Shown here piece after piece: positions 16,800 through 31,726 of a stretch of 64,000 bases of DNA. The DNA lies in contig JAKAGV010000002.1 of NCBI GenBank assembly GCA_021815405.1, positions 186,001 through 250,000 on the forward strand, in the 5' to 3' direction. The notes beneath the pieces are model-generated. The model searched no databases, was not told the DNA's origin, and was given only the letters and a program-made list of their open reading frames with translations. This DNA is from Bacteroidota bacterium. GTDB lineage: Bacteria; Bacteroidota; Ignavibacteria; Ignavibacteriales; Ignavibacteriaceae. Every line of letters begins with the position of its first letter. Position 1 is the first letter of the stretch. A program made the translations under genes and the position numbers.

Positions 16800-17057
16800 T
16801 TAATATCTTAACTTAATTTTATTGTCATGCCTTCTGCCTGCTGCGCCGCCTAATCCTAGACCCTTCATCGCGCTTTCATATATCTCATCTTTCAAAAACG
16901 ATACCTGCCCCGGGCTGAGCTCGCCGGTTTCTTCAAACTGCTCTTTGTATGCCTTAAACATTATTGCCTTTGCCGGATCCTCTTTCCTCAATGCCTTTAT
17001 GTTTTCCCCGATAAATTCGATAATATCTTTTATGCGCCTCTTTTCTCCTTCGCTCAT
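16800..17057 (-). CDS. Hypothetical protein downstream of SbcC-like gene
   Basis: This 85-residue helical protein (IIEFIGENIKALRKEDPAKAI, FLKDEIYESAMKGLGLGG) has a basic C-terminal end. It overlaps the SbcC-like stop by 4 nt (ATGA), so it is likely co-translated. The family is unknown. Confidence 0.6.
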   Translation of the reverse strand: MSEGEKRRIKDIIEFIGENIKALRKEDPAKAIMFKAYKEQFEETGELSPGQVSFLKDEIYESAMKGLGLGGAAGRRHDNKIKLRY

Positions 17058-19813
17058 GCCGCTTCATTCCTTACCGTTACTTTGCCGTCTTCTAACACAA
17101 TCTGCTGCGGGATATATTCTAGTAGCTCCTGCCTGTGTGTTATCAAAAAGGTATTGTAAACTCCAATCCTCTTATGCGCGTTCTCTATCATCTCTATAAA
17201 ATGCTTTGCGTTTCCTGCGCTCAAAGCTCCGTCTCTCTCATCCAGGAATATTGCCGGTATATTAAATCCTCTTTCCTTTTGGTAAAAGATAAGCGCAAGC
17301 TGCAATGCCGTCTCAACCCATATCTGCTCGCCTCCGCTCTTCTTCCTTATGTCCGCCGCCCTATTGGGTCCAATTACATTGATATCAAATATTTCTTTCA
17401 GCTTCTTCCTATCCTCTGTCCATTCTACCGTCTGCATTGCTATCCTGAACTTATTCTCGAAGAATTCTAGAAACTCATTCGCAATTTTTGTTATCGGCAC
17501 TCCTGCATTTTCCAGCTTCAATACCGGTATTCCGGTCTTGTCAAACGCCCTTATTAAAAAGTTTCTGTCGCTTATCTCTCTCTGCGCAAACTGTATCTCG
17601 GCTTCTTTTGCTGCGAGCGTGTCCTTATTCTTCTGAAGCCTCGTTAGGCTGGCTTGCTTTTCTGCTATATCCTTTTGTAAGTTAAGTATATCGCTTCTCA
17701 GTCTGTTAATGGTTTCAATTAAGCCTGTTAAATCCCTTTCTTTTAGGTAAATATCGTCTTTTAGGCTCTTAACCTTTTGAGAAGCTTCTTTATCTAGTTT
17801 TAGGTTTAGTATGTTAATTTCTTCGTCTAGTGAATTTATTTTAGGTGTATATTTATCTTTAACGCCTAAAGCCCTATCGTCGTAAAGCTTTTTAATCCCT
17901 TCCCTCACCGTCTGGATTAAGTGTTTGTTGGTATTTATTTGCTCATTAATAAAATGCAACTTATCTGATAAAGTCTTTTGTATGTTAATAAGCTTATCGT
18001 CATATTCAATAAGGCTTTTCTTCTTCTCCTCTAATAATTTATTAGAGTTAGAAATATTATTCCTTAATAATTGAATCTGCTGCTGTGCGTTTTTTGCGTC
18101 TTCCTGCAGCTTCTCCCAGTTGCTCTTGTTTATCTCTGCTAGCTTTCCCGCAATCTCTTTAATCGCTAGTGATAGTTTTTCCCTGTCCAATTTTAGGTTC
18201 GTAAAACTTCCGTTGTATTTTCTGGATATGTCCGCCGTCTTTTCGCCCATTACCCTCTGCGCTTCCTCATATTCTGCGCCTAGCTTCGTCCTGTGCTCAT
18301 CTGCCTCCCTTATTCCCGATTCTATTGCCGCGGCTTCTTCTGCAAATTTCTTTTCTACCTCCGCCTTAATCCGGTTGTTTTCGTATGCCCTCTTCAAAAA
18401 TATGCAGCTGGCGCCTACCTCCGGTGAGCAGGGTACCTTATTGATCGTCTCTATTGCTTCGTTAATCGTTGTCATGGTCTGATTGTGCGACCTTTCTAAT
18501 CCTTCCTTATCCTTACACAATAGGTCATATTTGCTTTTTGCTTGCTCTACATCCTTGCTTAACCTCGCCGTCTTATCCTGAAGCGCTTTCAGGCCTTCTT
18601 TCTCTTGCTTTTCGCTTTCCTGAAGTTCGGCTACCCGCTGCATTAATTCTTTTTCTTCTGCTAATTTGCCGTTTATCTCCTCCGTTAATTGTTTCTTCTC
18701 CTGTAATTTCTGCTCGATTAAATCTTTGTTCTCCAATATTTTTTCATACCGCGCAATCGAACCGGCCTCTTTATGTATATCATCATTAAGGCTCATTATT
18801 TCAATCTCTACTTTCTCTTTCTCTACTTTTATTGCGCTGCTTTGTAGTCTTTCTGCGTCGTTTTCTTTTTCAAGTTCTTTATTCAGGTTCTCAATTTTTA
18901 TAGCATATTCATTGTTGCGGTCAAACTGTATTAGCTTCTGCTCTTTGTCATTGTTGGCTCCCCATAAATCTGCCTGCATCTCCCGCTCGGCATTGTATTT
19001 CTCTAGCTTTTTTCCATCTATTGATTTTTGTACTCCGTCGTTGCCCTTCTCTATCTCTTCTAGCTTTGATAGCTCAATCTTCTTATCCTGAATATCTCTT
19101 CTTGTGCTTTCAATTGTCTTTTCCGTCTCATCAATAGCGTATTTTAATTTCTCTTCCTCAATCCGCTTTTCGTTTATCGCTGTCTCTGTCCCGGATAAAA
19201 TTTCCAGATCTTCTTTTATTATTTTAACCTCTCCCTCAAGGTTAGCAAGCTTCGTTTCCTCTGTTTTACAAATGTCTTTTTGCTGCCTGCAGAGTTTTTC
19301 ATATTTAATATACCGCAATAGCTCATAAAATATCGCTCTGCGATCCGCCGGCTTTAATTTTGCTATTCCTGAGCTCTTCTGTGCGGCAAACACAGTGTTG
19401 AAATACAGATCCTCGCTTCCAAATAGTTTAATTACTTCCTTATCGTAGGGGCCTTTTTTCCCGTCTAATTCTTTGCTTAGGATAATTCCGTTTTTGTAAA
19501 TATAAGGCTCGCTGTTCCCGCTTAGCCCATCGATTAGAATTTTAAACTCGTAAATATCTCCGTCAATTTCCTTTTTAATTATCCTCCATGAATCCTTCAA
19601 AAAGAAACTATCCTCAAGTTTGCCATCATAAGATACCATGCGCCGATATTCATGCAGGTTCTCAATTAGCGTTGTCTTTCCCCGTCCGTTATCTCCTACA
19701 ATCGCAACTAGCCCCGGCTTTAACCTGGACAAATCCAGATCAACCTGGTCCAGCCCTATCCCGTCATGTATTCCTATCGCCCCCCTCAAACTAAATGAAA
19801 GATATCTCTGCAT
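17054..19813 (-). CDS. sbcC: SbcC/Rad50-like AAA ATPase nuclease subunit
   Basis: This 919-residue SMC-like ATPase would pair with the SbcD-like nuclease at 23037-24242 to process DNA ends and hairpins. Walker A is VGDNGRGKTT at about 39-48. Long coiled coils span about 170-450 and 480-740. The turn between them has PCSPEVGASC in place of the usual CxxC zinc hook. The C-terminal lobe has the signature KKSGGEQ, a Walker B strand AIFLDERDGA and the H-loop ITHRQE. In phages such pairs assist replication and recombination. SbcC and SbcD are separated by five genes, including a helicase. Length is typical. Confidence 0.9.
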   Translation of the reverse strand: MQRYLSFSLRGAIGIHDGIGLDQVDLDLSRLKPGLVAIVGDNGRGKTTLIENLHEYRRMVSYDGKLEDSFFLKDSWRIIKKEIDGDIYEFKILIDGLSGNSEPYIYKNGIILSKELDGKKGPYDKEVIKLFGSEDLYFNTVFAAQKSSGIAKLKPADRRAIFYELLRYIKYEKLCRQQKDICKTEETKLANLEGEVKIIKEDLEILSGTETAINEKRIEEEKLKYAIDETEKTIESTRRDIQDKKIELSKLEEIEKGNDGVQKSIDGKKLEKYNAEREMQADLWGANNDKEQKLIQFDRNNEYAIKIENLNKELEKENDAERLQSSAIKVEKEKVEIEIMSLNDDIHKEAGSIARYEKILENKDLIEQKLQEKKQLTEEINGKLAEEKELMQRVAELQESEKQEKEGLKALQDKTARLSKDVEQAKSKYDLLCKDKEGLERSHNQTMTTINEAIETINKVPCSPEVGASCIFLKRAYENNRIKAEVEKKFAEEAAAIESGIREADEHRTKLGAEYEEAQRVMGEKTADISRKYNGSFTNLKLDREKLSLAIKEIAGKLAEINKSNWEKLQEDAKNAQQQIQLLRNNISNSNKLLEEKKKSLIEYDDKLINIQKTLSDKLHFINEQINTNKHLIQTVREGIKKLYDDRALGVKDKYTPKINSLDEEINILNLKLDKEASQKVKSLKDDIYLKERDLTGLIETINRLRSDILNLQKDIAEKQASLTRLQKNKDTLAAKEAEIQFAQREISDRNFLIRAFDKTGIPVLKLENAGVPITKIANEFLEFFENKFRIAMQTVEWTEDRKKLKEIFDINVIGPNRAADIRKKSGGEQIWVETALQLALIFYQKERGFNIPAIFLDERDGALSAGNAKHFIEMIENAHKRIGVYNTFLITHRQELLEYIPQQIVLEDGKVTVRNEAA

Positions 19814-22777: not shown

Positions 22778-23037
22778 ATTTTGTCCCCCCAAATTTTTTC
22801 AGCATAGAACCCTCGGTGCTTGAATTTCCTACCGCAACCATTACACACCAATACCGCCGTCCATCCAGGTATTCCCCCTTCGTCCCTATCGCCTTTGGCT
22901 CCCCAGTGCTCGTCTTTCATAATAGCAACTCTATGTAGATGCTTGTCTATAAATTCAGGATTAGAACACTCCGCCTTAGTTCTTTTAGGACTATCCCAAC
23001 CAAAATCCGGCGTAATATTATTTATAAATCCTTCCAT
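22774..23037 (-). CDS. Hypothetical protein with small zinc-knuckle-like motif
   Basis: This is an 87-residue protein. The C-terminal half contains TAVLVCNGCGRKFKHRGF, with a CxxC, and a cysteine and several histidines lie earlier. It may bind zinc. It overlaps the SbcD stop by 1 nt and is coupled to the AP2-like gene downstream. Confidence 0.55.
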   Translation of the reverse strand: MEGFINNITPDFGWDSPKRTKAECSNPEFIDKHLHRVAIMKDEHWGAKGDRDEGGIPGWTAVLVCNGCGRKFKHRGFYAEKIWGDKI

Positions 23038-24242
23038 TATCCCTCTGCCTCCGCCGTCTCTGCCTCAAATATTTTCTTCTCAATGCTTCTTGTTATCTCC
23101 TCCCCCGTTACCTTCCCGTATTCCTTTACTTCCTCCAGTAAGTTCCTAGCCTCCATTATAGCCTCGCTCCTGCTTTCCCTCTGGACCGGAATCACCGTCG
23201 GGTCTATCTTTACATCCTCTCCAAATATCTGCCTTATTTCTGCTTCCTTCTCTTCCGTTATTAAATTCTTTTCATTCTCCGGTATTGTGTATTTGAACCT
23301 AACCTCTGCATTCTTCGGAATGTGGTTTTCATAAACAAATTTTCCGTCCTTAAACTCTGCCGTTACATCTACCATTGGCCTTGCTGCTATAAGCGGGATA
23401 TGCTCTGGAATTACCGCCCCGCCCTCTATATTCAGCACTGTGAAATATTTCTGTTCTATTTCCCCCCAGCTTTTGTTGTAAGGGCATCCTAGGTACCCCA
23501 TAATCGGAGTTATATCCTGCGCTAAATGTATATGCCCTAAAGCATAATAATTAGCTTTTGCCCTCATCAAGCTAAGGGGTGAAATAATAATATCCTGCCC
23601 CTTAATTGACTGCCCGGTACTAATCCTGGCGCCCTGCACATTCAGGTGGGCCGCCATAATTTTGGCGCAGCTGTATCTATCATTCAGCAAACCAAAAACA
23701 TCCATAAGCCCGTCAAATGCCGCTCCATAATCAAAATTATTCTCGTCAATACTCTGCTCTTTCACTAGCATTGCCTTATTGGGGTAAGGCATCATATTAA
23801 ATATTATCTCCGGCATTACTCCGTCTTGTATTATTTTCGCCGGCTCTTCCCTTAATAAATCCACATACTTAATCTCTGGCTTTCCCTGGTAAATCCCGGT
23901 TTCATAAAAAGCCAAACTAACAGGATCTTCAAAGGCTAAAATGTTCGGCGCAAGTTTATGCAGTAAAGATACACTCCCTGGTGCATCATGCTGGTTATTA
24001 CCCTTCGTAATAACTACATACTTTACAAGTTGTGCAAAACCTCTTAGATAATGATGTATCAGCTCTACGCCCGTATCGCTCTTATAGTTCTGTACTGAAT
24101 CCAATATGTCTCCCGCAATCGCCATATAATCAATTTTTACTTCTGCCGCATATTCCATTATCTGATCCAGTGATCTTCCAAGCTTCTCCTGGTGCTTCGG
24201 ATTACTGTCTGAATGTAAATCCGCTAATGGTATTATTCGCAT
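23037..24242 (-). CDS. sbcD: SbcD/Mre11-like metallophosphoesterase nuclease
   Basis: This 401-residue calcineurin-like nuclease is the partner of the SbcC-like ATPase. Metal-binding motifs occur in order: ADLHSDSN (D-x-H) at 7-14, AGDILD at about 44, TKGNNQHD (the GNHD position with an inserted residue pair) at about 79, AAHLNVQGA at about 190 and LGHIHLAQ (GHxH) at about 225. The C-terminal part is a capping domain with a charged helical end that would meet the SbcC coiled coil. It overlaps the YkgJ-like gene by 10 nt. Confidence 0.9.
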   Translation of the reverse strand: MRIIPLADLHSDSNPKHQEKLGRSLDQIMEYAAEVKIDYMAIAGDILDSVQNYKSDTGVELIHHYLRGFAQLVKYVVITKGNNQHDAPGSVSLLHKLAPNILAFEDPVSLAFYETGIYQGKPEIKYVDLLREEPAKIIQDGVMPEIIFNMMPYPNKAMLVKEQSIDENNFDYGAAFDGLMDVFGLLNDRYSCAKIMAAHLNVQGARISTGQSIKGQDIIISPLSLMRAKANYYALGHIHLAQDITPIMGYLGCPYNKSWGEIEQKYFTVLNIEGGAVIPEHIPLIAARPMVDVTAEFKDGKFVYENHIPKNAEVRFKYTIPENEKNLITEEKEAEIRQIFGEDVKIDPTVIPVQRESRSEAIMEARNLLEEVKEYGKVTGEEITRSIEKKIFEAETAEAEG

Positions 24243-26348: not shown

Positions 26349-26585
26349 TTAATTTTCTCCCAGTAATTGATTTATTTTTCTCTTATTTTCTGTTTCTTGT
26401 TTTGTCTTAATTAAGATCGCTTCAACCTCCCGCCTGTCATATACGGGATATTTTTTCCCTGGCAAATAGCTTGGGGTTATTAGCCCCGTATTAACACAAT
26501 TAGTCCTAAATCTTCTCGCATTCTTGTAATCCAGCATCCTCGCCGCCTGCGTCTCTGATACTATTATTTTCTCTACCTTCGCCAT
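26349..26585 (-). CDS. Excisionase-like helix-turn-helix protein
   Basis: This is a 78-residue protein. IIVSETQAARMLDYKNARRF, then TGLITPSYLPGKKYPVY and DRREVEAIL, give a MerR/AlpA-type winged helix: recognition helix, a basic wing, then a C-terminal helix. This is the usual build of phage excisionases (Xis) and small regulators. It is therefore a candidate directionality factor for the integrase, although it lies 4 kb away in the leftward transcript. Confidence 0.7.
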   Translation of the reverse strand: MAKVEKIIVSETQAARMLDYKNARRFRTNCVNTGLITPSYLPGKKYPVYDRREVEAILIKTKQETENKRKINQLLGEN

Positions 26586-27178
26586 CAGCAGTAAATTCCC
26601 TTCGCGGACTGTATTAAATTCGACGTCCCTAGCTTAAATCTTAAATTCTGAAATTCTTTCTTTATAGTGTGAACCGATTTGAATTCTTTGTCTGCAATCT
26701 CACTTGGCTTAGTAATACCCTTTTTTATGTATCTAACTAGCTTTAATTCTGTCGGCGTTAAATTCTTTTCATCTTTCCTATTTATTATCTCAACTAGGTA
26801 CTTCGGCATGTCTACCGGCGATCCGCTTAATATTATTTTTATTCTTTCCAGAATCCTTCTCGAATTCTCCGGCCTCTTTAATAAATAATCGTCAACATCA
26901 TCTAATAAAGCATCAAGTAAATGTTTTTCCTCATGCACGGTTAATACTATTATTTTTACTTCTTTGTCCTTGCTGCGTATAATTTTTATAGCATCTTCTC
27001 CGCTTATTTCCGGCATTTCAAGATCGGTAATTATCAGTTCCGGCTTCTCTTCTTCAAATTTTTCTAATAGCTCATTTCCGTTCCGCGCCTCAGTTGTTTC
27101 ATATCCCTGGCTCCGCAAATCTTGTGCTAAATACATCCTTAATACTCCGTCGTCTTCCGCGATCAAAACCTTACACAT
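26585..27178 (-). CDS. Orphan response regulator (REC + LuxR/NarL-like HTH)
   Basis: This is a 197-residue two-component regulator. The receiver domain is intact: acidic pair D9-D10, phospho-acceptor D52 in ITDLEMP, T80 in VLTV and K101 in YLLKR. The C-terminal domain (LTPTELKLVRYIKKGITKPSEIADKEFKSVHTIKKEF...) follows the LuxR-type four-helix HTH. No histidine kinase gene is in the window, but two membrane protein genes are directly upstream in the same transcript. It may tap a host kinase or act without phosphorylation. A regulator of this type is unusual in an early phage operon. Confidence 0.88.
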   Translation of the reverse strand: MCKVLIAEDDGVLRMYLAQDLRSQGYETTEARNGNELLEKFEEEKPELIITDLEMPEISGEDAIKIIRSKDKEVKIIVLTVHEEKHLLDALLDDVDDYLLKRPENSRRILERIKIILSGSPVDMPKYLVEIINRKDEKNLTPTELKLVRYIKKGITKPSEIADKEFKSVHTIKKEFQNLRFKLGTSNLIQSAKGIYC

Positions 27179-28707: not shown

Positions 28708-28804
28708 GTTCAACTTATTGAACTTGTTAAACTCACAAGTAAAAATAAGTATAATTATACTTGTTGTCAAGTATATTATTTGAAATTTATACTTGATTAT
28801 ACTT
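28708..28804. promoter_or_regulatory. Switch operator region with TATACTT/AAGTATA palindromes
   Basis: The 148-bp gap between divergent regulator genes holds a perfect 16-bp palindrome AAGTATAATTATACTT (28747-28762). It also has a left half-site CAAGTATA (28768-28775) and right half-sites TATACTTG (28788-28795) and TATACTT (28798-28804). A separate inverted repeat GTTCAA-cтта-TTGAAC lies at 28708-28723. Repeated half-sites of one sequence are expected of a repressor/Cro operator set. AT-rich promoter elements overlap them, but I cannot pick exact -10 boxes. Confidence 0.7.
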
Positions 28805-28839: not shown

Positions 28840-29289
28840 ATGGCTAAAGAAAAAATTAAAAAATTTTTTACTCGGGAAGAAATAATGAGGGCAATTTATA
28901 AAGCGGGCTATCCTTCTCTTAATGAATTGTCTGAAATAATTGGCGGTACTCCGCAGAATATATCTGATAAGATCAACCGCCAATCCCCTGCATTTATGGC
29001 CGCACTAGAAAATGCAAATGTGTTTCCGGTGAAAAATGATAATTCAAAACAAATAGCTAAAGGTCATCACAACAATATAGCGCATGACATAAAAGAATTA
29101 AAAATAGATTATGGAGAAAAATCAAATGACTTAGAACTACTGAAATCAGCTGTAATCCGGCTCTCTAAGGACATAGAGAACTGTATGAGGGATGTAGAGG
29201 GATTAAAGACAGAAGTCCATCGGTTAAGGGAGAAATATGGGTCATCACAACATAATAGTGGAAAACGTTCAGCAGCTAAAGGTGAATAA
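28840..29289 (+). CDS. CI-like phage repressor (HTH, no peptidase domain)
   Basis: This is a 149-residue protein. Residues about 9-47 (TREEIMRAIYKAGYPSLNEL then IGGTPQNISDKINR) match the N-terminal HTH of CI-type repressors. There is no S24 peptidase domain, so RecA-stimulated self-cleavage is not expected. The second half has a KGHHNNIAHDIKEL segment followed by a coiled coil for oligomerisation. It is the first rightward gene and probably the lysogeny repressor acting on the 28747-28804 sites. The final 50 nt overlap the next gene in another frame. Confidence 0.75.
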   Translation: MAKEKIKKFFTREEIMRAIYKAGYPSLNELSEIIGGTPQNISDKINRQSPAFMAALENANVFPVKNDNSKQIAKGHHNNIAHDIKELKIDYGEKSNDLELLKSAVIRLSKDIENCMRDVEGLKTEVHRLREKYGSSQHNSGKRSAAKGE

Positions 29290-29455
29290 TGAGAACAATG
29301 ACAAATTACTTATATACTTAAAAACATTAGATTTATTGCTAAAGAAAGTGGAACGGCTTGAAAAAATCATTATCGAACAGCAATCCTCTATTCAGTCTCG
29401 TGATGAAGCAATCTTTCAATTGCATAATTATATTAAAGAAATAACAAATATTTGA
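29237..29455 (+). CDS. Small coiled-coil protein resembling the repressor C-terminal half
   Basis: This 72-residue protein, MGHHNIIVENVQQLK plus a coiled coil (LLLKKVERLEKIIIEQQ), starts inside the repressor gene in another frame. Its N-terminus mirrors KGHHNNIAHDIKELK of the repressor, and the DNA around GGTCATCACAACA is repeated at about 29053 and 29238. It looks like a duplicated oligomerisation module. It could co-assemble with the repressor, or be a remnant of a once longer repressor now out of frame. Confidence 0.55.
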   Translation: MGHHNIIVENVQQLKVNNENNDKLLIYLKTLDLLLKKVERLEKIIIEQQSSIQSRDEAIFQLHNYIKEITNI

Positions 29456-29497
29456 TTCTTGGCACAATAAGATTTGAAATAATTAGTTCGTTTTATA

Positions 29498-29509
29498 AAT
29501 TAACATATT
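29498..29509 (+). promoter_or_regulatory. Recurrent AATTAACATAT motif, copy 8 (plus strand)
   Basis: AATTAACATATT on the plus strand (11 of 12 matches), 33 nt ahead of the ATG at 29543. It points with the rightward recombinase gene, so the motif follows gene orientation. Confidence 0.45.
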
Positions 29510-29542
29510 AAAATTTTCATATAATAATTTGGAGTTAGTATT

Positions 29543-30517
29543 ATGGAACCGGTAAAATCGCCCGGCGGCGTTCCCCCCTTCGGGTATCAATGGAATATCG
29601 CCGAAAAACATCTTGAAGTAAACAAGTGGGAAAGGAATATAGTTCTTTTAATCTTCAAATATGCGCTAAAAGATAACCTCTCCCCCTACAATATTGCAAA
29701 GTCACTAAATAAGTATAACCTCAACTCCTCCCGCAAGGGCAAGCTCTGGACATATAAATCCGTCTCATATTTATTCGCTCCTTCGCGGATTGATTTTTAT
29801 GCTGGTTATCAGCATGATCAAAAAGGCAGCTGGGAACCAATTATTACAAGCTCTATGGCTGCAGAACTAAAAAAGAAAAATATAGTTACCAAAACCGGAT
29901 CCCGCCCGCACAAAAATAAATACCTGCTTACCGGCGGTATCGCTCATTGTGGTTACTGTCAGGGGCACATCAAATCAGCTTATTATAAATCCGCTGCCTC
30001 CATCAATGCTTATTATTACTGCTCAACTCGTAGTGTATACGGCAAAGATAAGTGTCCCGATAGCAAAACCATTATTCAGGGTATAGCCGATAATATAGTC
30101 ATCCAAACTATTAAAGCCCAGGTTCAAAACTTAAATAATATACAGAAATGGACGGCTAAATATTATTCCCAGCAGGCCCGGGATATCAGCAGTAAAGTCA
30201 ACGAAATTGATACTAAAATCTCATCCCTCCTTAAAGGCCTTAATTCAATTAAGTCCATCGACGGAGTATCTAAAGCAAATAAGGAAATAGCGGATCTCCT
30301 GGCGCAAAAAGAAAAATTATTGAACCTCAAGCTGGACCGCTTTGATTTTAACAAGCTGCTTGCTGCACGTAATATTGAAAAGAAAAATATCGATCAGCAA
30401 AAAGAACTTCTCTCATCAATCATAAAAAAGCTTGATCTCTTTGGTGATAAAATAGTAATTGAATTTCCCTTTGTTATCTCATCCCAGGGCAGCAGCAAAT
30501 TAGAAAAGGAGTTTTAA
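29543..30517 (+). CDS. Large-serine-recombinase-like protein lacking the catalytic domain
   Basis: This is a 324-residue protein. The start GGVPPFGYQWN and following region to about 95 match the 'Recombinase' DNA-binding domain of large serine recombinases. A zinc-ribbon domain follows with C136, C139, C160 and C171, and then a coiled coil (about 205-270). The N-terminal resolvase domain with the catalytic serine (about 150 residues) is absent. The preceding 250 bp do not encode it in any frame I could read. GGAG lies 10 nt before the ATG and the recurrent motif is upstream, so it appears to be an intentional free-standing gene. Its stop is 1 nt before the integrase ATG. Possible roles: att-site binding, integrase helper or regulator. 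Confidence 0.85.
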   Translation: MEPVKSPGGVPPFGYQWNIAEKHLEVNKWERNIVLLIFKYALKDNLSPYNIAKSLNKYNLNSSRKGKLWTYKSVSYLFAPSRIDFYAGYQHDQKGSWEPIITSSMAAELKKKNIVTKTGSRPHKNKYLLTGGIAHCGYCQGHIKSAYYKSAASINAYYYCSTRSVYGKDKCPDSKTIIQGIADNIVIQTIKAQVQNLNNIQKWTAKYYSQQARDISSKVNEIDTKISSLLKGLNSIKSIDGVSKANKEIADLLAQKEKLLNLKLDRFDFNKLLAARNIEKKNIDQQKELLSSIIKKLDLFGDKIVIEFPFVISSQGSSKLEKEF

Positions 30518-30518
30518 T

Positions 30519-31610
30519 ATGGCGTCTATATATGTCCGCAAAAATTCAAAATATTTATGGATTAAGTGGTATGATAAATCCATACATGGCTTTAGATATG
30601 AATCTACAGAATTCGAAAACACTCCCAAAGGGAGAGATGATGCTAAGGAATTTAAAGAAGAGTTTGAAGCTAATTTAAAATTAAAAAATAGGAATAAACG
30701 CTTTAGCATGACCGGCGACGTCTCACTACAGCAAGCTTTCAATCATTTCCTCAAAAACAATACCGGGAAAAGCGATAAAACTATCTATGAGTATAAACAT
30801 TGGTTTGAAAAATTAAAAGAAGAGTTCCCCGGCAATACTCCTGCTCGGAAAATTAATAAATTAGATATTGAGGACTGGCTCAACTCGGTTAAAAAGTGGC
30901 CTGTTCAAGATAACACAAAATATAATATCTGCAAGAATACAAAAAAATTTCTCTCATTCCTTTTTGAATATAATTACACAAATCCATTCGTCATAAATAA
31001 GGATGTACTCACAAAGCCCGAGATAAAAGAAAAAATCTTATTTACTGAAAATGACTGGATTAAAATATTTCATCATCTAAATGAACAACCCAGACATTTT
31101 AAAGTTATGATTTATTTGCTTACATATTCCGGGCGCCGTCCCTCTGATATTATGGATATTACGGTAGATAGAATTGATCTTCACCGAAAAACCTTCTCTT
31201 TCTACGTACCGAAGAATAAAAGATATACTATTCTGCCTCTCCATAGCTCGCTTATTCCAGTATTGCAAGAACGGATTAACGAAATCGGTAGTGGAAGACT
31301 AATCTCATACAAAAACCTCAGCAACATGGGCCAGGCGCTTCGTAAATACCTAAAAAAGTTAAAACTATACGGGAAGGGATATAACCTTCGAACATTTCGA
31401 AAAACGTTCGATTCCCTCGCTTATGAAAACGGAATGGAAGTCATGTCAGCTGCCGAACTTCTCGGGCACTCTGCCGCCGTCGCCCAAAAACATTATCGTA
31501 AAATCAGCATGCAGCGTATGCGGGACGAGCTCGAAAAATTCCAAATACCTCAAAAACCAGTGACATTATCAGTGACAGAAGACGGAAAACTAATAGAATC
31601 AAACAAATAA
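30519..31610 (+). CDS. int: Tyrosine recombinase / phage integrase
   Basis: This 363-residue site-specific recombinase would insert the element at tRNA-Asp. An N-terminal arm-binding part (ASIYVRKNSKYLWIKWYD) and a SAM-like core-binding domain (about 68-160) precede the catalytic domain. Active-site residues are R207 (SGRRPSD), K234 (KNKRY), R294 (FRKTF), H317 (LGHS) and Y326 (HYRKI). The His usually three residues before the second Arg is R291 here, a substitution tolerated in some families. The ATG is 1 nt after the stop of the serine-recombinase-like gene, so both are probably made together. A terminator follows directly. Confidence 0.93.
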   Translation: MASIYVRKNSKYLWIKWYDKSIHGFRYESTEFENTPKGRDDAKEFKEEFEANLKLKNRNKRFSMTGDVSLQQAFNHFLKNNTGKSDKTIYEYKHWFEKLKEEFPGNTPARKINKLDIEDWLNSVKKWPVQDNTKYNICKNTKKFLSFLFEYNYTNPFVINKDVLTKPEIKEKILFTENDWIKIFHHLNEQPRHFKVMIYLLTYSGRRPSDIMDITVDRIDLHRKTFSFYVPKNKRYTILPLHSSLIPVLQERINEIGSGRLISYKNLSNMGQALRKYLKKLKLYGKGYNLRTFRKTFDSLAYENGMEVMSAAELLGHSAAVAQKHYRKISMQRMRDELEKFQIPQKPVTLSVTEDGKLIESNK

Positions 31611-31611
31611 A

Positions 31612-31644
31612 AAAGCCTTATAAGTTTTTCACCTATAAGGCTTT
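31612..31644. terminator. Intrinsic terminator after integrase
   Basis: AAAGCCTTATA and TATAAGGCTTT form an 11-bp stem around a TTTTTCACC-type loop, starting 2 nt after the integrase stop and bracketed by A and T runs. It would work in both directions, also for transcripts leaving tRNA-Asp. Confidence 0.85.
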
Positions 31645-31652
31645 AACTCAAG

Positions 31653-31726
31653 CGGGGCCGACGAGACTCGAACTCGCGACCTCCTGCGTGACAGGCAGGC
31701 GTTCTAACCAACTGAACTACGACCCC
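31653..31726 (-). tRNA. tRNA-Asp (GUC)
   Basis: The minus strand begins GGGGTCG and ends CGGCCCC plus discriminator G, pairing as a 7-bp acceptor stem with one T-G pair. The D-loop sequence AGTTGGTTAGA is present. The anticodon arm CTGCCTGTCACGCAG gives GTC, and the T-arm has GTTCGAGTC. CCA is not encoded (CT follows). The 3' end faces the integrase, the usual arrangement when an element uses the 3' part of a tRNA as attachment site. Confidence 0.97.

Follow-up and report, generated by a model that had tools for sequence, protein, structure and literature searches.

The window (the whole 64,000-nt stretch of DNA analysed here) carries, near its middle, a gene whose product corresponds to a large serine recombinase reduced to its DNA-binding half, with no catalytic domain. 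Its stop codon lies 1 nt from the tyrosine integrase ORF that follows it, as the sequence-only reading of this DNA had stated (Table 1). In the 324-aa protein, we found the Pfam families Recombinase (PF07508, residues 32-107, 23.8 bits against a cut-off of 21.1) and Zn_ribbon_recom (PF13408, residues 132-190, 26.8 bits against a cut-off of 25.3), and the resolvase catalytic domain PF00239 was absent from the ORF according to both Pfam and the phrog_95 (integrase) profile. Since the alignment to phrog_95 begins with residue 7 of the protein at position 240 of 651 (E 1e-35), the first ~240 profile positions, which make up the catalytic part, are missing. An AlphaFold2 model with a mean pLDDT of 87 predicts two helices (residues 197-235 and 239-260) at the place expected for the coiled coil, with 10-residue pLDDT means of 90-96 there. 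The zinc-ribbon cysteines C136, C139, C160 and C171 are invariant in all ten aligned copies of the protein described below, three of which (G393, G582 and G648) have a shorter coiled-coil stretch. The recombinase domain, zinc ribbon and coiled coil first read from the letters are thus borne out by Pfam, alignment and structure prediction. No match to the excisionase-type families HTH_17 and TIGR01764 was seen in the 324-aa protein at E <= 1.

Table 1. Features of the window around the gene pair, and loci of the other copies of the protein (window positions unless a locus is named)
Feature	Position	Strand	Basis and remarks
Catalysis-free large-serine-recombinase protein (recombinase domain, zinc ribbon, coiled coil)	29543..30517	+	ATG, 324 aa; ORF list, profiles and predicted structure; integrase 1 nt downstream, tRNA-Asp
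Tyrosine integrase, 363 aa	30519..31610	+	PF00589, 46.1 bits, cut-off 27.1
Terminator-like hairpin between integrase gene and tRNA	31612..31644	-	predicted, minus-strand listing
att repeat, 49 nt (48 identical), 3′ part of tRNA-Asp	31650..31698	.	repeat comparison with the same contig
tRNA-Asp (GTC), integration target, 3′ end toward the integrase gene	31652..31726	-	tRNA search
5′ leader, conserved with two relatives	29495..29542	+	14 identical nt (TAAATTAACATATT), promoter-like TTAACA..AATAAT, GGAGTTA ribosome-site-like motif
72-aa ORF between the repressor-like ORF and the module	29237..29455	+	ORF list, Pfam
149-aa ORF at the position of the G562 repressor-like gene	28840..29289	+	no Pfam family over cut-off here
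Perfect palindrome AAGTATAATTATACTT between two divergent ORFs, repressor-like region	28747-28762		possibly an operator
Response regulator in the prophage	26585-27178		Pfam Response_reg, 83.3 bits; phrog_731
78-aa ORF	26349-26585		no Pfam match; by eye resembles a small DNA-binding protein
SbcD/MRE11-like gene in the prophage	23037-24242		by eye
SbcC-like gene in the prophage	17054-19813		by eye
G562 and G550 copies			integrase 11 nt downstream; tRNA-Val
G747 C6 copy	L122:8105-10512 (module)		4-nt overlap with integrase; tRNA-Met
G747 C8 copy	L123:2090-4369 (module)		integrase overlap 38 nt, or 8 from an inner ATG; 3′ part of tRNA-Met
IMG/VR copy			integrase overlap 29 nt from a GTG start chosen by alignment, 35 from the listed TTG
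G393 copy			in an apparent phage remnant; no adjoining tyrosine integrase
G582 copy			637 nt from the contig end; no adjoining tyrosine integrase
G648 copy			phage-like region on an 8-kb contig; no adjoining tyrosine integrase
G747 C4 copy	L121:7988-9154		stop 145 nt from the tRNA-Phe 3′ end; no adjoining tyrosine integrase

Tyrosine integrases have the catalytic residue pattern R-K-(H/R)xxR-H-Y, and the candidate catalytic residues of the partner integrase (R207, K232, R291xxR294, H317 and Y326) are invariant among the four closest linked integrases. The att repeat in the 3′ part of the tRNA-Asp gene has a second copy beyond the window, on the same contig (G000:C11:125286-125334), and this pair makes the two-gene module the right end of a ~92.4 kb element integrated at tRNA-Asp. 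On the other side of the module, a 149-aa ORF occupies the position held in a relative, G562, by a repressor-like gene with Peptidase_S24 over its cut-off and HTH_3 just under. Genes similar to the SbcC- and SbcD-like genes of the prophage also adjoin the G393 copy (L006:1235-5133).

The gene begins cleanly at the recombinase domain, with an in-frame stop 5 codons upstream of its ATG, and a catalytic domain was not found just upstream. The window's genome (G000) contains the protein once, and the two resolvase catalytic domains found there (E <= 0.001) belong to a different contig, where their open frames measure 504 and 581 aa. The first reading had also seen a copy of a motif upstream of the gene, and this was not upheld: between 28400 and 31800, exact 10-mers from three non-coding stretches recur only as AT-rich scatter or as local palindromes and hairpins, and no att-proximal binding motif was found, which counts against the role proposed below. 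Instead, the leader holds the 14-nt block TAAATTAACATATT, 47 nt upstream of the ATG, which is identical in the G562 and G550 genes of the same genus despite coding DNA that is only about 56% identical in alignment with the window gene. The GGAGTTA motif is likewise common to the three leaders. In the other seven copies, the block is not present, with at best 9-11 of its 14 positions matching.

Extent, boundary and selection of the family

We found ten distinct copies of the protein, 26-52% identical to the window protein: nine in the order, where 7 of 164 genomes searched have at least one and G747 has three, and one in a phage contig of IMG/VR. A search of the phylum with the single protein (395 genomes, E <= 1e-10) returned one relative besides the window, G393, which also lacks the catalytic domain, and with ten proteins (395 genomes, E <= 1e-15), the window and G393 were the only short forms. 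A three-protein profile matched open frames of 307-364 aa in 6 of 391 genomes of the class, with E from 4.5e-159 to 2.1e-34. After a clear gap, the weaker matches (E 2.5e-19 and beyond) fell in frames of 502-614 aa, with the exceptions of G602 (frames of 67 and 96 aa), G444 (229 aa), G448 (275 aa) and G452 (269 aa). A search of 244 genomes of the class at E <= 1e-25 yielded no further copies. The phage terminase, used as bait, led to the IMG/VR contig (92,605 bases) with another copy, overlapping a tyrosine integrase. Single-sequence scans of genome_contigs and viral_contigs confirmed no relative, nor did a scan of genome_contigs with the integrase profile. Profile scans of the viral contigs gave one linked contig and otherwise long forms or nothing; in the viral locus L033, a 273-aa frame stands alongside one of 663 aa. 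Matches by tblastn comprised 46 phage and 5 plasmid records, and the one phage record inspected among them, Mycobacterium phage Reindeer (gp133, MT658803.1, L012), was rejected as a precedent since its 500-aa frame matches the serine-recombinase profile; its annotation as a 'tyrosine homologous recombinase' is probably a misnomer for a serine integrase. The family has so far been seen in one order and one phage contig, which we count against the explanation preferred below.

The ten copies share one boundary. The distance from the start to the PxGY motif, which marks the beginning of the recombinase domain, is under 20 residues in all of them (for G393, whose longest ORF is 347 aa, counted from an inner ATG chosen by alignment), and in each, the frame is closed by a stop 1-47 codons ahead of the start used. 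In a phylogenetic tree, the short forms (11 rows, in which the G393 gene appears twice, whole and cut) lie on one side of a single branch supported at 99/97, opposite 44 long forms defined by open-frame length (>430 aa) and not by a check for the catalytic domain. From this tree, which has no outgroup root, we infer a single loss of that domain.

For the G562-G550 pair, the protein has a dN of 0.074 and a dS of 0.836 (ratio 0.088, NG86), and the integrase a dN of 0.022 and a dS of 0.446 (NG86). These rates come from that one pair, the window gene being without a relative close enough for a rate. In summary, the observation of a serine-recombinase protein freed of its catalytic domain is confirmed, and the protein belongs to a conserved family that is under purifying selection in the one pair tested.

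Linkage to tyrosine integrases and the genes that hold the slot in relatives

Homologues of the protein are not always full-length enzymes apart from tyrosine integrases, since six of the ten short copies immediately precede a tyrosine integrase gene of the same orientation. Five of these six stand beside tRNA sequence, at three tRNA targets in all (Asp, Val and Met). The two integrases linked in G747 are divergent, yet score over the PF00589 cut-off. No tRNA gene was found within the 20 kb of the IMG/VR contig that surround the module, which would fit a non-integrated phage; near this module (L013:15112-18593), a reverse transcriptase of the diversity-generating type and a possible variable protein were recognised by eye. 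Both att copies were found for the window element only.

The coupling that had been read from a single locus therefore recurs, and it is not strict. In subclade A of the protein tree (window, G562, G550, IMG/VR and G747 C6), all five copies are linked, and in subclade B (G648, G747 C8, G747 C4, G582 and G393), one of five is; the four copies without a neighbouring integrase, all in subclade B, count against strict coupling. On contig C4 of G747, the short protein stands alone at the position of an integrase by tRNA-Phe, with no integrase in the 145 nt between them. The C6 and C8 elements of the same genome are different elements with the same tRNA-Met target sequence, and C8 shows the 3′ part of the tRNA only, as if the two lay in tandem. 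The integrase tree puts the linked integrases in two places, the two from G747 forming long branches. A single clade of linked integrases was not rejected (AU p 0.115), and two lineages of partner integrases are not firmly established. The G747 C6 copy falls inside the subclade of the window in the recombinase-protein tree and outside it in the integrase tree; this disagreement hints at an exchange of partners between protein and integrases.

We also looked at what holds the slot upstream of related integrases. A profile of four linked integrases matched 25 of 391 genomes of the class at E <= 1e-20, including the window and its two linked relatives. In the loci of the unlinked integrases, taken with ~1.5 kb of flank on either side as far as the contigs reach (two rows had no locus), the protein was not found. 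The integrase tree has 27 unlinked rows, and the slot was inspected in the 15 nearest. In 14 of them, an ORF of ~100 aa of the helix-turn-helix kind abuts or overlaps the integrase frame, and in the fifteenth, a 400-aa ORF of another kind lies upstream. Pfam, run on 13 of the 14 ORFs, assigned HTH_17 to 11 (ten over the cut-off) and nothing to the other two; NCBIfam, run on seven, one of them outside the Pfam set, assigned the excisionase family TIGR01764 to all seven (five over the cut-off). Twelve of the 14 assignments are thus supported by profiles and two were made by eye.

Conversely, HTH_17 (Pfam, E <= 0.01) was not found on the window contig C11, on the module contigs of G562, G550 and G747 C6 or in the IMG/VR record; this absence from five of the six linked elements holds for the sequence at hand, as no second end of the element was found on the G562 and G550 contigs and the IMG/VR record may be a fragment. 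The search covers the HTH_17 family, and an excisionase of another family could sit in these elements; in the window element, the 78-aa ORF at 26349-26585 has by eye the look of a small DNA-binding protein. We relied on Pfam because a home-made excisionase profile, which found only its two positive controls in the stretches searched, missed the HTH_17 gene of the sixth linked element, G747 C8, where that gene is present alongside the protein. Replacement of an excisionase-type gene in its slot favours, as far as gene order can tell, the accessory or directionality factor proposed in the sequence-only reading, and the C8 element, with both genes, speaks against a simple substitution.

A proposed role and its comparison with known systems

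Serine integrases are unrelated to tyrosine integrases, and the two are described as distinct systems, each with helpers of its own. The explanation we prefer, held with about even confidence, is that the DNA-binding half of a serine recombinase has been kept as an accessory subunit of tyrosine integrases, most likely one that steers excision. The catalytic domain would have been lost, probably in a single event, before one small family diversified. The recombinase domain, together with the zinc ribbon, would then grip a site in or beside the attachment DNA of the phage, and the coiled coil would contact a second copy of the protein or the integrase. Since the slot is of the excisionase type in relatives, we propose that the att DNA so shaped or bridged would direct the tyrosine integrase, with excision as the most likely outcome, in the manner of a classical excisionase; the protein may in addition regulate its own operon. 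More tentatively, the protein may represent a new structural class of directionality factor, in which a freed half of a serine integrase steers a tyrosine integrase, displaces the excisionase and may re-pair with more than one integrase lineage. The interpretation is supported in part, for conservation and coupling; for function, we infer an integrase accessory from an unexpected source, and the binding of DNA at att, the site bound, a contact with the integrase and a bias towards excision are parts of that proposal.

A co-factor on the integration side, which would help in site choice or synapsis at the tRNA and leave excision to another factor, appears rather unlikely. It would suit the nature of the DNA-binding half of serine integrases, which binds attachment sites (PMC3783163), and the tRNA genes beside the linked integrases differ, but the close relatives have excisionase-type genes in the slot and the nearest ones manage without the protein, if their integrases work. 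Slightly less likely again is that a recombinase DNA-binding domain was recruited to regulate transcription, with the int operon or lysogeny under its control. This would account for the copies without an integrase, and the adjoining repressor-like gene in G562 and the leader block common to three relatives point the same way; known excisionases can also do both jobs, such as Apl of phage 186, which acts in regulation too (PMC7498355). A regulator would, however, have no need to abut or overlap int in six elements, and the block is missing from seven copies.

It is highly unlikely that the gene is a relic, left by a serine integrase that began to decay once the phage had acquired a tyrosine integrase: the four copies without an adjoining integrase, with G393 in an apparent phage remnant and G582 near a contig end, could be read in this way, but ten intact frames with the same boundary and four invariant zinc cysteines, a single well-supported branch and a dN/dS of about 0.09 in one pair argue against it, and a broken gene of this kind looks different, as the two short frames in G602 illustrate. 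The case that had been made against decay from the clean start and intact coiled coil is therefore strengthened. Even less probable is a competition factor that would occupy the attachment sites of rival serine-integrase elements. Long serine recombinases do exist elsewhere in G000, G562, G550 and G393, but none was found in G648 or G747, and the linkage with a tyrosine integrase would be left unexplained. A split serine recombinase, whose catalytic domain would come from another gene and join in trans, is improbable in the extreme. The boundary is a true domain boundary, and resolvase sequence does occur in G582 (a domain in a 265-aa open frame of a different contig) and in G393 (a 75-aa fragment); against this, no resolvase catalytic domain (E <= 0.001) was found in G747 (a genome 86% complete, in which a resolvase gene may have been missed), in G648 or in the phage record G395, and those of G000, G562 and G550 occur only in open frames of 504-581 aa. 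An assembly error was set aside along with decay and the split enzyme, given the in-frame stops upstream, the intact family and the dN/dS.

If the accessory reading is true, nature would have made a hybrid out of the two great classes of recombinase: a conserved pair, with the DNA-binding half from one class and the enzyme from the other, would show that parts pass between the classes, and would yield a directionality factor of known DNA-binding architecture. In the open-access literature, at the level of titles and the starts of abstracts (preprints and most subscription journals being outside this scope), we found no catalysis-free serine recombinase paired with a tyrosine integrase.

The closest known structure is a fragment of the A118/LI integrase without its catalytic domain, which was crystallised on a 25-bp attP half-site; it binds the half-site through the same domains, and its coiled coil reaches away from the DNA (PMC3783163). 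The ten-protein profile matches this C-terminal half (PDB 4KIS, 6DNW) from profile position 13 to 306 at E 1.2e-11, with the order of recombinase domain, zinc ribbon and coiled coil being the same. The AlphaFold2 model matches its fold as well: Foldseek aligned the model to 4kis_B at E 2.7e-11 with whole-chain TM-scores of about 0.3 and a large rmsd, presumably because the domains and the coiled coil are set at different angles. VIA-align gave a Z of 13.1 to 4kis_C (rmsd 12.0 over 271 residues) and of 10.8 to the phiC31 fragment 4bqq (rmsd 3.3 over 110 residues), followed by unrelated coiled-coil proteins at Z 8-9.5. This match by profile and predicted fold makes DNA binding by the window protein likely. 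The A118/LI construct was engineered from an active enzyme and retains part of the linking helix, whereas the window protein is a natural gene product, appears to be without the linking helix and has a tyrosine integrase as its neighbour.

With the excisionases of tyrosine integrases (HTH_17, TIGR01764), the protein shares the slot upstream of the integrase frame, often with an overlap, but it has an unrelated fold and about three times the length; at 324 aa, it is far larger than the usual excisionases, which we count against the directionality reading. With the large serine recombinases (phrog_95; TP901-1, phiC31, Bxb1 and YokA of SPbeta), it shares a homologous DNA-binding half, and it differs from them in having no catalytic domain and in lying on a separate side of the tree.
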